Below are positions 1,178 through 11,422 of a DNA stretch of 11,609 nucleotides, in pieces. Source of the stretch: Microcaldota archaeon (GTDB lineage: Archaea; Micrarchaeota; Micrarchaeia; Anstonellales; Bilamarchaeaceae); assembly GCA_013331535.1 (NCBI GenBank), contig DUGF01000078.1:489-12097 (forward strand), written 5' to 3'. Each line of letters begins with the position of its first letter. Position 1 is the first letter of the stretch. A program made the translations under genes and the position numbers. A model generated the notes under the pieces. That model had not been told where the DNA came from. It did no database searches and was given only the letters and a program-made list of their open reading frames with translations.

Positions 1178-2488
1178 ATGAAACCACCCAACAAGGCGAG
1201 GCGACCCGAAGCGTCTGGTTCTGGTGCTGTCAATGAAAATATTTGTGCGCAGCACTCACCTCACCTTGTTACAGCAGATTTATGCGTCCGATGCAAGGCA
1301 ACCAAAAAGCTTTGCGGGCTTTCGTTCTGCCCTCTTCTGAGCAAGATTAAGGCGCAGTCCTCAATGTCCAAATCTATCGGATTGGATATGTTCGGACCTT
1401 CAAACGAACTATTCGTAGGCAGCGCATTCTATCCTGATGTTTATGCAGGGCCGCTTGTTTCCGCTGTTTCCGCGGAAAGCCAGACCAATGCTGCGGAAAC
1501 CCGGACACAATCTATTGAAAGCCCGCGTGACCTTTACGGCAAAAGCTATGAGGAGATAATCCGTAATTTCTCTGCAATTCTTCGCGGAAAACAAAAAACT
1601 ACGGTTACGCGGCGTGTTTCTGATGAAATGCAGGAAGTATCTATCAGCATCCGCGCAGTGGATGTTGAAGTAAAATTCTCAAAAGTTCCAAAATTCGATA
1701 TGCAATTCTCTTCAGTTCTCCAGCCAATGGGTGCAAGTGCTCCGCTCAGGGAATTCCATCAGGCGGAAAATCCGAAAATTCCTGGAAAAGTTGATTCTGT
1801 TATTGGGGAAGGACTTAAGGCAACCGAGGCGCTTTGCGAACTTTCCAACGCGGGCTTTGATAATTATTATCTTTCGCGGATTCTTTCATCCGGTGCGCTC
1901 GGAAAAAAAGAAAACCGAAAATTGGTTCCTACGCGATGGGGGATAACCGCAACCGATGACATGCTCGGAAAGCAGATACTTGGAGAGGTGAGGGAGTTTC
2001 CTGAGCAAAACGAATTTTTGTTATTCCACAATGAGTTCCTTCATAACCGCTTTTTCGTTCTTTTACTGCCTGGGGCATGGGAGTTTGAAAACTTTGAATC
2101 CTGGGCGCCGGAATCTGTCTGGGCCAAAGGAGCAACTGATACGATAACTACTGAAGAATATGAGCCGCATGAAGGCAGGACCACCTATGCGGACAAGCAG
2201 GTTGGTGCGTATTACGCAGTTCGTTTGGCAGTTGCGGAATACCTAAACAAAATCAGAAGGCAAGCACGGGTCGTTGTTATCCGCGAGATTGGAGAGGGTT
2301 ATATTGTTCCTGTAGGTGTCTGGGAGGTAAGAGAGAATGTAAGGCACGCTCTTTTGTCAGCTCCGGAACGTTTCGGTTCCCTGTCAAAATTGTTCACCGC
2401 TCTTTCTTCATCTATACGCGTTCCGCTTTCTCGCTATCAGTCTATGAGCAAGATCATGCGTCAGACGAGGTTGGGAGATTTTTTCTGA
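1178..2488 (+). CDS. nreA: Nre family archaeal DNA repair protein with C-terminal PIP box
   Basis: Archaeal Nre proteins (DUF650/DUF651 families) take part in repair of DNA damage such as crosslinks, working with the sliding clamp PCNA. Seen here: a Cys cluster C36-x2-C39-x6-C46-x4-C51 near the N-terminus, which probably binds zinc. It is followed by the family-typical SIGLDMFGPSNELFVG (residues ~66-81) and a Y-P-x-V-x-x-GP stretch. The last eight residues, QTRLGDFF (429-436), are a textbook PCNA-interacting motif (Q-x-x-L-x-x-F-F). At 436 aa it is near the usual family length, so it appears complete. The ATG was chosen because it lies just upstream of the Cys cluster and 32 nt past a TATA-like box. 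It stands alone on its strand between divergent neighbours. The A versus B subtype is not certain. Confidence 0.9.
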   Translation: MKPPNKARRPEASGSGAVNENICAQHSPHLVTADLCVRCKATKKLCGLSFCPLLSKIKAQSSMSKSIGLDMFGPSNELFVGSAFYPDVYAGPLVSAVSAESQTNAAETRTQSIESPRDLYGKSYEEIIRNFSAILRGKQKTTVTRRVSDEMQEVSISIRAVDVEVKFSKVPKFDMQFSSVLQPMGASAPLREFHQAENPKIPGKVDSVIGEGLKATEALCELSNAGFDNYYLSRILSSGALGKKENRKLVPTRWGITATDDMLGKQILGEVREFPEQNEFLLFHNEFLHNRFFVLLLPGAWEFENFESWAPESVWAKGATDTITTEEYEPHEGRTTYADKQVGAYYAVRLAVAEYLNKIRRQARVVVIREIGEGYIVPVGVWEVRENVRHALLSAPERFGSLSKLFTALSSSIRVPLSRYQSMSKIMRQTRLGDFF

Positions 2489-4158: not shown

Positions 4159-4286
4159 GCGACTGTAGTCTAGCAAACCTTTTTCGGAAAAGAAAGAACG
4201 AATGCAAATAGAAAGAAAAGGTTTGGACAGTGGTAGGATTCGAGATTGCCAATCTCGTGACCCGGGTTCGAACCCCGGCGGTCGCA
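4159..4286 (+). tRNA. tRNA-Gly(GCC) with an intron in the D-loop
   Basis: Once 57 nt are removed, a complete 71-nt cloverleaf remains. The acceptor is GCGACTG (4159-4165) with CGGTCGC (4279-4285), with A4286 as discriminator. The D-stem is GTCT (4168-4171) with GGAT (4236-4239). The anticodon stem is CGAGA/TCTCG (4241-4245 and 4253-4257) with loop TTGCCAA, so the anticodon is GCC at 4248-4250. The T-arm is CCGGG-TTCGAAC-CCCGG (4262-4278). CCA is not encoded. The D-loop (AG then TGGTA) is split by the intron, so the A-box is interrupted. The mature sequence closely resembles euryarchaeal tRNA-Gly(GCC). The gene stands alone between two protein genes. Confidence 0.93.
4173..4229 (+). other. tRNA intron at a non-canonical D-loop position (57 nt)
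   Basis: The intron ends form a 10-bp helix: CAAACCTTTT (4174-4183) pairs with AAAAGGTTTG (4216-4225). GTC of exon 1 (4168-4170) pairs with GAC (4226-4228) at the intron 3' end, leaving a 3-nt bulge TAG (4171-4173). This is the exon helix, bulge and intron helix expected for the 5' cut of a bulge-helix-bulge substrate. The 3' side lacks a firm outer helix, so the motif is relaxed. AG occurs at both junctions, so boundaries can shift by one base either way (4172-4228 to 4174-4230) with the same mature tRNA. The loop (4184-4215) is purine-rich and has no ORF. Confidence 0.85.
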
Positions 4287-7267: not shown

Positions 7268-8449
7268 GTGATTAGGTTAGAACTTAACCGGAAAAGCGGG
7301 GAGATATGTGTTAAGGAAGCAGAAGACGTTTCTTCCCTTTCAAACGGTTTTTACGGGCGTATGCGCAAAGGTATAATCTATCTTGAACCAGAAGAAGTAT
7401 TGTATATAATGGATATCCGCAATGGCAAATGCTTTGACGAAAGCGGAAACACATTTTCATTCAACGATGTAGCCGAATTTTATGCAAAAAATCCAAAAGC
7501 GCTTGCCCGCTATCTTACGTATAAGGATTGGCGTGACAAAGGCCTTATTCTTCGCAATGCTACTGAAGTTAAAAGTGACGGGAGCTATGGCCGGGGCGGC
7601 GCAAAGCGGTACAAATCAGAAAAATTAAAACTGGATTCTTACTCATTCACCGGTCTCTTTTTCCCTGATGATCTTCTTACGATTGTTGATGATGAGCTTG
7701 TTGGAAAAGACCTTTACGAAAAATACTGGATTGGCCAGTTCGGAACATACAAAGCCGCGCATCGCGGGAAAATCGCCAAGCTTGATGTATATGAAACGAT
7801 TTACCTTGCAAAACATGGAGGCCTGAGTCTGAGAAACGCGAAGCTTGATTCGGTAATCGCCGCGGCCGACGAGCGCATCAAATATTTTGAAGACATGTAC
7901 GCGGTTTATGAGGACTGGCGCAAGCGTGGGTATGTAATCAAAACCGGTTTCAAATTCGGAACCCATTTCAGGATTTATTTCCCAGGGGCATCTCCAATTC
8001 GCGAGGGGGATGAATGGATGCATTCCCGCCATGTTATTCACGTGTTCCCGCGAAAAAGCAAATTGATTATTTCAGAATGGGCGCGCGCGATTCGTGTTGC
8101 GCATTCAGTGAAAAAAACATTCATTCTTGCGATTCCTGGAAAAAAACTCGACATAAAAGTAAATCCTAAGCATCCGCGCCTTGATTTTCTCCTCTACCAT
8201 CGTAAAAAAGATGGAATAGAAAATCCAAAGGAGAATTCGCCCAAATATTTCATGCTATCGCTTACCGAGGATGAGTATATCGGCGGAGAGGAATTAGCCA
8301 AGGCATTGTTTGAATGCAAACATTTTGAATTGGATATGCTGATGGCAATTTCAGACCGGGAAAGTTCAGTTACGTACTATGCAATAAAACGTCTTGATCT
8401 TCCCGGAAGCGAGTATGAATATTTTGAGATTGAATGGGTCCAGCCGTGA
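7268..8449 (+). CDS. endA: tRNA splicing endonuclease, three-unit (epsilon2-type)
   Basis: Cuts bulge-helix-bulge motifs to remove introns from tRNAs. The 393 aa are far longer than the ~180-aa homotetrameric form and match the ARMAN-type epsilon2 layout. A non-catalytic alpha-like unit (~1-125) includes GFYGRMRKGIIYLEPEEVLY and YLTYKDWRDKGLILRN. A catalytic alpha unit (~150-292) includes YWIGQFG, YEDWRKRGYVIKTGFKFGTHF, Tyr237 in FRIY, His252 in HSRHVIHVF and Lys282/283 in AHSVKKTF, the Tyr-His-Lys triad. A beta-like C-terminal unit (~300-393) ends in FEIEWVQP. The two YxDWRxxGxxI blocks show internal duplication. The start is a GTG spaced 27 nt from the TATA element, with no ATG alternative upstream. 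The last 26 bases recur 58 bp downstream. Confidence 0.94.
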   Translation: MIRLELNRKSGEICVKEAEDVSSLSNGFYGRMRKGIIYLEPEEVLYIMDIRNGKCFDESGNTFSFNDVAEFYAKNPKALARYLTYKDWRDKGLILRNATEVKSDGSYGRGGAKRYKSEKLKLDSYSFTGLFFPDDLLTIVDDELVGKDLYEKYWIGQFGTYKAAHRGKIAKLDVYETIYLAKHGGLSLRNAKLDSVIAAADERIKYFEDMYAVYEDWRKRGYVIKTGFKFGTHFRIYFPGASPIREGDEWMHSRHVIHVFPRKSKLIISEWARAIRVAHSVKKTFILAIPGKKLDIKVNPKHPRLDFLLYHRKKDGIENPKENSPKYFMLSLTEDEYIGGEELAKALFECKHFELDMLMAISDRESSVTYYAIKRLDLPGSEYEYFEIEWVQP

Positions 8450-10780: not shown

Positions 10781-11422
10781 ATGAACATTCACGAAATGAA
10801 GTATAATCTTGCCATTGGTGCCGCAAGAGTTATCTTTACAGAAATCAAAGGTGCGATATTTTGCGGAGGAACAGCACTGAATACTTTTTATTTGAACTAT
10901 CGCTATTCCGAGGATCTTGATATCGGATACATCTCAGCAAATCCGAAAGCGCGGATAGAAACCCTGCTTGAAAAAAACGGTTACAAAATCGGAAGAACAG
11001 GGATGAAGATACGCGATATTATCACAGGTGAAGGCACGGAAATCAAAATGGATATCTTTGAATACGAGCCGATTACCGGTATCGTTAGCAAGGATTTGCA
11101 GGGTGTGAGCGTCAACACGTTGTCGTCAGAGGAATTCACGCTTTCAAAAACAATTTCTTTTATGACACGCGAGGACAAAAACGGATTGGTAAGGGACGCG
11201 TATGATTTGTATAAACTTAGTGATATCCTGAATGTTTTTAGTGTGGTTAAAAAATACAAAACAAAAATTCGTCGTAAGGTTGATGTAGTGCAGCACAACT
11301 TCATGACGTTCTATGAGAATCTCAAGTATGCGTCTATTGCAGTTGAACCGCTGCTCAAAAGCCCTGTTGACCATGATGCAGTAGAGAATTTCATGAGAAA
11401 GATCGAAAAGTTGATGCTATGA
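10781..11422 (+). CDS. AbiEii/AbiGii-type nucleotidyltransferase (toxin-like)
   Basis: Belongs to the nucleotidyltransferase family that includes AbiEii toxins of type IV abortive-infection systems, whose members can modify tRNA or other targets. Motifs seen: CGGTALN with Gly29, Gly30 and Thr31; RYSEDLDIGY (41-50) with catalytic acids Asp45 and Asp47; KMDIFEYE with a third acid at Asp91; Lys123 in LSKTISF; and RDAYDLYKL (138-146), the conserved RDxYDL motif. The C-terminal ~65 residues are helical and basic. At 213 aa it is a compact member. Its stop overlaps the next start (ATGA, 11419-11422), indicating translational coupling. No AbiEi-like antitoxin lies upstream, where one is usual; the coupled downstream gene is the only candidate partner. 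Function as a toxin is inferred from family and context. Confidence 0.87.
   Translation: MNIHEMKYNLAIGAARVIFTEIKGAIFCGGTALNTFYLNYRYSEDLDIGYISANPKARIETLLEKNGYKIGRTGMKIRDIITGEGTEIKMDIFEYEPITGIVSKDLQGVSVNTLSSEEFTLSKTISFMTREDKNGLVRDAYDLYKLSDILNVFSVVKKYKTKIRRKVDVVQHNFMTFYENLKYASIAVEPLLKSPVDHDAVENFMRKIEKLML

Follow-up and report, generated by a model that had tools for sequence, protein, structure and literature searches.

A probable bulge-helix-bulge intron in the D-loop of a tRNA-Gly(GCC) gene from an intron-rich archaeon of the Micrarchaeota

The window analysed here, an 11,609-nt stretch of DNA from an archaeon of the Micrarchaeota, contains a tRNA-Gly(GCC) gene at positions 4159-4286 of the forward strand. 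Its 128-nt precursor carries an insert of 57 nt in the D-loop, between tRNA positions 15 and 16, the removal of which would give a mature tRNA of 71 nt (Table 1). All stems are intact once the precursor is spliced, and ARAGORN recognizes the spliced 71-mer as tRNA-Gly(gcc) with a score of 119.4. The same program finds no tRNA in the unspliced precursor, nor in the unspliced window, and the Rfam search of the window gave a weak partial tmRNA match over the 3' part of the tRNA gene, with nothing better there. A sequence-only reading made earlier had proposed a tRNA-Gly(GCC) gene with a D-loop intron, and its coordinates, the three lengths and the intron site were all borne out. At the end of the window (10781-11422), an AbiEii-type nucleotidyltransferase (PF08843) is encoded, and the next open frame is cut by the edge. 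In the following, G000 denotes this archaeon's own genome and other G numbers its relatives, and L numbers denote loci.

Table 1. Position of the tRNA-Gly(GCC) gene parts, of the endonuclease gene and of some pseudoknot copies (window positions, unless a locus is given).
Feature	Position	Strand	Basis
tRNA-Gly(GCC) exon 1: acceptor 5' strand, nt 8-9, D-stem 5' strand, nt 14-15	4159..4173	+	ARAGORN on spliced product; D-arm match to L088
D-loop intron, 57 nt, between tRNA positions 15 and 16	4174..4230	+	BHB scan, shuffles
tRNA-Gly(GCC) exon 2: rest of D-arm, anticodon arm, variable loop, T-arm, acceptor 3' strand, discriminator A	4231..4286	+	sequence, ARAGORN
Exon strand GUCU of the BHB central helix; doubles as 5' strand of the mature D-stem	4168..4171	+	BHB scan
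Intron strand GGAC of the BHB central helix	4225..4228	+	BHB scan
5' bulge AG^C, predicted cut 4173/4174	4172..4174	+	BHB scan
3' bulge AG^U, predicted cut 4230/4231	4229..4231	+	BHB scan
Outer intron helix, 5' strand AAACCUUUU; 9 Watson-Crick pairs, then one U.G	4175..4183	+	sequence, BHB scan, fold
Outer intron helix, 3' strand AAAAGGUUU	4216..4224	+	sequence, BHB scan, fold
Anticodon GCC	4248..4250	+	sequence, ARAGORN
Epsilon2-type tRNA splicing endonuclease, 393 aa, enzyme expected to cut the Gly intron	7268..8449	+	PF01974, PF02778
Pseudoknot copies, among others	L157:1511-1578, L159:1432-1499, L032:1430-1497, L078:85-152, L163:1752-1819

Every pair of cuts in the precursor was scored for bulge-helix-bulge (BHB) geometry, and the top structure (score 27) has exactly the cuts 4173/4174 and 4230/4231. 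This register shows the standard succession of a 3-nt bulge, 4 bp and a 3-nt bulge, with each cut behind the second nucleotide of its bulge; the central helix GUCU/GGAC has four pairs, of which the terminal one is a U.G, and nine Watson-Crick pairs plus a U.G form the outer helix. The runner-up (score 26) lies one nucleotide inward at both ends and would give a 73-nt tRNA. With the site kept fixed, none of 2000 dinucleotide-shuffled introns reached a score of 27. The 10-bp helix CAAACCUUUU/AAAAGGUUUG, the GUC/GAC pairing and the 3-nt bulge UAG, as described in the sequence-only reading, are all present in the sequence and correspond to the top-scoring structure moved by one pair. Beyond the 3' bulge no exon-exon helix forms, as judged by sequence, so the motif is of the relaxed hBH form, rather than the strict hBHBh'.

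Considering the route of splicing, exon nucleotides 10-13 (GUCU) would pair in the precursor with GGAC at the 3' end of the intron, and a 9-bp helix would close the intron on itself. The endonuclease encoded 3 kb downstream would then cut each 3-nt bulge behind its second nucleotide, RtcB would join the exons, and nucleotides 10-13 would re-pair with nucleotides 22-25, giving the mature D-stem. As the exon strand is used twice, by the intron and then by nucleotides 22-25, cutting and joining would have to precede the re-pairing. The fold switch upon splicing that had been expected is supported, since exon nucleotides 10-12, when paired with the intron, exclude the mature D-stem, as seen in the sequence and in the isolated D-arm segment, which folds as proposed; 41 of 200 shuffles fold equally well (z -0.63). 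Regarding the whole precursor, the nearest-neighbour minimum fold (-39.4 kcal/mol, compared to -32.6 kcal/mol for the cloverleaf-plus-BHB fold) lacks the BHB. For the BHB to prevail over the minimum fold of the naked precursor, transcription-coupled folding or a bound protein would have to shift the balance towards it.

The endonuclease encoded in the window matches EndA of ARMAN-2 (4fz2) over query residues 3-393 (E 1.7e-136), and the residues opposite Y236, H251, K282 and the loop residue K161, counted by eye on the alignment, are identical; the roles of these residues are described in an excerpt of PMC6379350. An excerpt of PMC4033280 reports that the ARMAN epsilon2 enzyme cuts BHL introns and those of the relaxed hBH form at various tRNA positions and, by analogy with ARMAN-2, the enzyme of the window probably has a broad specificity. 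Its relatives in named genomes are labelled Candidatus Micrarchaeota in 23 of 24 loci and Candidatus ainarchaeum in the remaining one, which points to a micrarchaeal host. In addition, RtcB ligase is present in the archaeon's own genome (PF01139 over the cut-off, G000:C83). This RtcB (locus L152) has an insert, intein-like by eye, within a single open frame (GGIGYDIN/CLPGD ... HNFIANGCVVSN/CGVRLL). Second, weak endonuclease-like matches in short open frames of 164-213 aa were observed beside the epsilon2 gene in 8 of 31 genomes (G001, G002, G003, G006, G010, G013, G014 and G019).

The 3' part of tRNA-Gly(GCC) was sought in 31 genomes, including the archaeon's own, with a match in 28 and a readable D-loop in 25. 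An intron at this site of the D-loop is found in eight of the readable genomes (G000, G001, G003 with two copies, G004, G005, G009, G012 and G014) and is absent in 17, among them G018 and G019, which carry a T-loop intron instead. The spliced 15-nt D-arm GTCTAGTGGTAGGAT is identical to that of the intronless 71-nt tRNA-Gly(GCC) gene of G010 (L088), and G009, from another genus, has the identical 71-nt mature sequence with a different intron of 81 nt. When 12 Gly D-loop introns at this site were compared, drawn from GCC, CCC and TCC genes in nine genomes, the helix between exon and intron had 4/4 pairs in ten and 3/4 in two. Eleven of these introns beat 95% of their own shuffles, those of G005 (P 0.04) and G001 (P 0.0475) barely, and the intron of G004 is not significant (P 0.125). 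Counted strictly from the fixed register, the outer helix has at most two pairs in six of the 12. The intron interiors differ widely by eye, the closest to that of the window being the tRNA-Gly(CCC) intron of G001, as both hold AAACCUUUUU...GGUUUGGA. In G004, the tRNA-Gly(GCC) gene (L107:1426-1672) has by eye at least three introns, located at the D-loop, the anticodon loop and the T-arm or T-loop.

A minimum of three changes is required to explain the D-loop intron of tRNA-Gly(GCC) on the endonuclease tree of 30 genomes. All eight carriers sit in one subclade of 13 members (support 100/98), the other five being three without the intron and two unread, and this distribution fits one gain and two losses. 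The three members without the intron (G006, G015 and G028) have a different D-arm, GTCTACC.., so that gene replacement is possible.

From the sequence evidence, the window very probably holds a working tRNA-Gly(GCC) gene with a bulge-helix-bulge intron in its D-loop. The cloverleaf, the BHB at the cuts, the intronless relative, the endonuclease and RtcB make a functional relaxed BHB intron the most likely identity of the insert, which belongs to the already known archaeal BHB (EndA-type) tRNA introns. The precursor would also give the same mature RNA if it were cut one or two nucleotides further 5' (14/15 or 13/14), as the AG is repeated, but these registers score -8 and 0, respectively, compared to 27 for the cut at 15/16, and removal by such shifted cuts, or through a different fold, is highly unlikely.

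It can also be asked whether the gene is a dead copy, in which an old tRNA-Gly gene was broken by an insertion and the pairing is a remnant. The predicted minimum fold of the whole precursor, which is not the BHB, would agree with this, as would an assembly that is 84% complete, in which another GCC gene could be missing; this reading is nonetheless most unlikely, considering that the stems are all intact after splicing, that the mature sequence recurs unchanged in another genus (G009) around a different intron, and that the pairing at the splice sites recurs in relatives despite differing intron interiors. A second intact tRNA-Gly(GCC) gene, named beforehand as a sign of a dead copy, is not among the own-genome matches, although, at 84% completeness, one is possible: the DNA search gave the gene of the window, a tRNA-Gly(CCC) gene with D- and T-loop introns of its own and a short contig-end fragment, and the TCC gene came from the Rfam search. 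Concerning a self-splicing intron, 57 nt are too short for group I or group II, the geometry for splicing by proteins is complete, and the window has no Rfam match to group I or II intron families at E up to 1. The probability of such an intron is negligible, even if the paper "Group I introns are widespread in archaea" (PMC6125680, excerpt) mentions Micrarchaeota.

Among 22 tRNA genes that could be delimited in the archaeon's own genome, 21 have at least one intron, located in the D arm in 16, in the anticodon loop in 14 and in the T-loop in five; the uninterrupted one is tRNA-Val(CAC). All three tRNA-Gly isoacceptors found in this genome have a D-arm intron. The remark of the sequence-only reading that D-loop introns are uncommon may hold for archaea at large but does not describe this genome, nor the Gly site, given the above counts of 16/22 genes and 8/25 genomes. 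In this genome, 84% complete, five tRNA genes exceed the cut-off of the general Rfam tRNA model, and the number of RF00005 matches (E up to 0.001) varies between 2 and 45 across 16 genomes of the same family. As the model sees few of the genes, an inventory of tRNAs in such archaea can fall badly short.

The 22 genes were reached through relaxed Rfam matches, T-arm plus D-arm patterns and flanking stretches, giving an incomplete inventory that favours genes whose T-arm is intact, that have an Rfam score or that contain the word GTAGCTCAG. An automatic splice solver was dropped, as it left 4 of 18 candidate genes unsolved and treated others oddly, and the genes were therefore delimited with hand-chosen anchors; their anticodon-loop boundaries are approximate. 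ARAGORN, applied to the 22 spliced genes, called the expected isotype in 12, an unresolved anticodon in six, another isotype in two (Val-GAC and x32, the latter since reinterpreted as Ile-GAT with different boundaries) and none in two (Trp and Ala-CGC). Loci L034, L037, L038, L039, L040, L043, L063, L157 and L163, as well as more in L208-L211, were left out because of contig ends, N, long variable arms, permutation or unclear boundaries.

Inserts near the variable loop were also seen in one Met-like and two Arg-like tRNA genes (L163 1669-1740; L041 about 1500-1600, reverse strand; L009 5757-5970), where a TTGAAC...GTTCAA hairpin lies between directly repeated exon sequences (AAATCTGGAGGTTCGG at L163:1669 and 1724). 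Moreover, the T-loop of the tRNA-Ala genes at L159, L161, L157 and L166 starts with UGCGAG instead of UUCRA, and the D-loop of L161 is AGAAGCA, without GG; a swap of elbow pairs is possible in these tRNA-Ala genes.

Introns of different tRNAs in the family share the signature U(4-6)G-[17-20 nt]-CA(4-6), which belongs to an H-type pseudoknot of about 70 nt that recurs in D-, anticodon- and T-loop introns. The element comprises helix A (UUUUG/CAAAA with a covarying flank), a loop of 17-20 nt, a crossing helix B and a conserved AAAA before the 3' strand of the latter. From 132 regex matches, 19 candidates were picked by eye and 17 tested, the hairpins of L087 and L101 being omitted. The U-run and the A-run are of equal length in all 17 of these eye-picked copies (permutation P < 0.0001), and for the flanking stem and helix B the pairing is better inside a copy than across different copies (P 0.0004 and 0.0017, respectively). 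In the alignment of 16 sequences, both helices together pair in 87.3% of cells, compared to 78.8% after shuffling, a value reached by none of 500 shuffles.

These 16 sequences (L019 omitted), with helix A as the sole structure, form model R1, which finds at least 16 matches in the archaeon's own genome and has matches in 9 of 21 genomes, namely 9 of 13 within the family and none of eight outside. As 150 first-look candidates were scored per genome, the copy numbers are lower bounds. Among the relatives' copies outside the model, 23 of 26 were kept for a run-length check (L197, already a seed, and two duplicate L204 rows were omitted), and the U- and A-runs are equal in 22 of the 23. Covariation was measured on 24 distinct rows, including the seed L197. 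Helix A pairs in 99.0% of cells, in an alignment fitted to this helix, with compensatory changes at three pairs; helix B, which is outside the model structure, pairs in 78.5%, with its clearest covariation at columns 26-56 (UA, GC) and 28-54 (GC, CG), and its two outer pairs fail in 11 and 13 of the 24 rows. The covariation score of the element is 0.406, compared to 0.108 in shuffles, and cells changed on both sides number 53, compared to 17.9, neither value being reached by any of 500 shuffles. Two of the five covariation measures were no better than shuffles, which matched the number of pairs with both-side changes in 278 of 500 cases and that of further pair types in 141 of 500.

Regarding the location of the element, the flanks, as read by eye, place 12 of 16 own copies in tRNA introns (five D, four anticodon and three T); two others abut tRNA exons and two have no tRNA in view. 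Over 13 genomes of the family, those with more copies have fewer Rfam-visible tRNAs (Spearman -0.74, p 0.004; kinship ignored). Outside the family, G018 (11) and G023 (9) are tRNA-poor by Rfam, yet have no match to the element, so that spreading introns would not all be of this kind. The Gly intron of the window was rejected as a member of the pseudoknot family, as it scores 3.2 bits (E 9.8) against model R1 with filters off. The intron of G009 at the Gly site is a seed of the model (L083), a weak one with a helix B score among the lowest and a poor flank stem.

Known RNA families were likewise rejected as the identity of the element or of the window's intron, as Rfam gave nothing beyond tRNA, the weak tmRNA match and a sub-threshold snoRNA; ten loci with the element, searched at E up to 5, gave only tRNA and this one snoRNA. 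The titles and abstract openings listed by the literature searches contain no survey of tRNA introns for this family and no family of pseudoknot tRNA introns, and the pseudoknot fold of the sibling introns appears to be undescribed so far.

One further gene, at L157:1464-1715 (G000:C61), is a candidate for a circularly permuted tRNA-Ala(GGC), with the 3' part followed by a 17-nt spacer and the 5' part. The upstream part TCCCTCCGAGTCCA (L157:1464-1477) equals the 3' end of two tRNA-Ala genes in cis (L159 and L161) and begins 27 nt downstream of the stop codon of a gene for an LSM-domain protein (PF01423, E 1.4e-20). The 5' part (L157:1495-1715) has D and anticodon introns and ends in the T-loop, and no 3' part follows it on the same strand within the locus. 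The acceptor strands pair 7/7, and the T-loop ends offer UGCG/CGCA with the bulges AG^C and AU^U. For the joined tRNA, 25 combinations of anticodon-intron ends were scored, the best being tRNA-Ala(ggc) with 119.3 and the third-ranked Ser(gga) with 117.8. As the candidate comes from one contig of one assembly, a misassembly is possible.

Two patterns applied to 40 and 118 genomes, own included, gave no further permuted case. Twelve of the 13 matches of the first pattern were scored, and permuted status was rejected for 11 other loci, whose acceptors pair in 3 to 5 of 7 positions; the 13th (G000:C88) is the cis gene of L159, with its acceptor strand absent upstream. The second pattern had three matches, two of which (L228 and L230) pair 5/7 and were rejected, the third being G000:C61 again.

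The pseudoknot element is a candidate for something that spreads among tRNA genes. It may be, with a probability a little below even, that a mobile H-type pseudoknot of about 70 nt colonises the tRNA genes of the family, landing in D, anticodon and T loops and being spliced as an intron by the epsilon2 endonuclease of the host. Unrelated or decayed introns, such as that of the window, would then be remnants at such sites or alternate with them, as at the site in G009 with its apparent weak copy, and the same process may have made the permuted tRNA-Ala.

Among known systems, the archaeal non-canonical BHB introns of Thermoproteales, Atabeyarchaeia and Freyarchaeia are similar in their sites outside 37/38, their BHB-type ends, the several introns per gene and the large share of tRNA genes affected. 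Introns are present in 92-95% of tRNA genes in Atabeyarchaeia and Freyarchaeia and in 70% in Thermoproteales (PMC11291895, excerpt). The present archaeon differs from them in its phylum, Micrarchaeota, and in the distribution of its introns given above (D-arm 16, anticodon-loop 14, T-loop 5), from a sample biased to intact T-arms. ARMAN-1 and ARMAN-2, for which tRNAs with multiple introns are listed (PMC4033280, excerpt), are comparable in that the endonuclease of the window is a near full-length relative of the ARMAN-2 enzyme 4fz2; this archaeon is another lineage of the phylum.

As for the permuted gene, tRNA-iMet and tRNA-Tyr of Thermofilum pendens and tRNAs of Cyanidioschyzon merolae are permuted with a junction at 59/60 (PMC3218864, excerpt). 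The candidate tRNA-Ala(GGC) resembles them in having the 3' part upstream of the 5' part and a join in the T-loop; unlike them, it is a tRNA-Ala with a 17-nt spacer and additional D and anticodon introns, seen here in the sequence of one contig.

Transposition of tRNA introns was described in Thermoproteales, where similar intron sequences occur in different tRNA genes (Fujishima et al. 2010, as cited in other papers). The pseudoknot element is comparable in occurring across several isotypes, in introns of the D-loop, the anticodon loop and the T-loop, but what is shared here is a covarying pseudoknot, and the intron of the window is outside that family. Beside Thermoproteales and some Asgard archaea, this lineage seems to be another one whose tRNA genes are mostly occupied by introns, distinguished by its epsilon2 enzyme and by relatives of the same family that seem to have few tRNA introns. 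With intron-rich and seemingly intron-poor members in one family, the gain, loss and spread of tRNA introns become testable.
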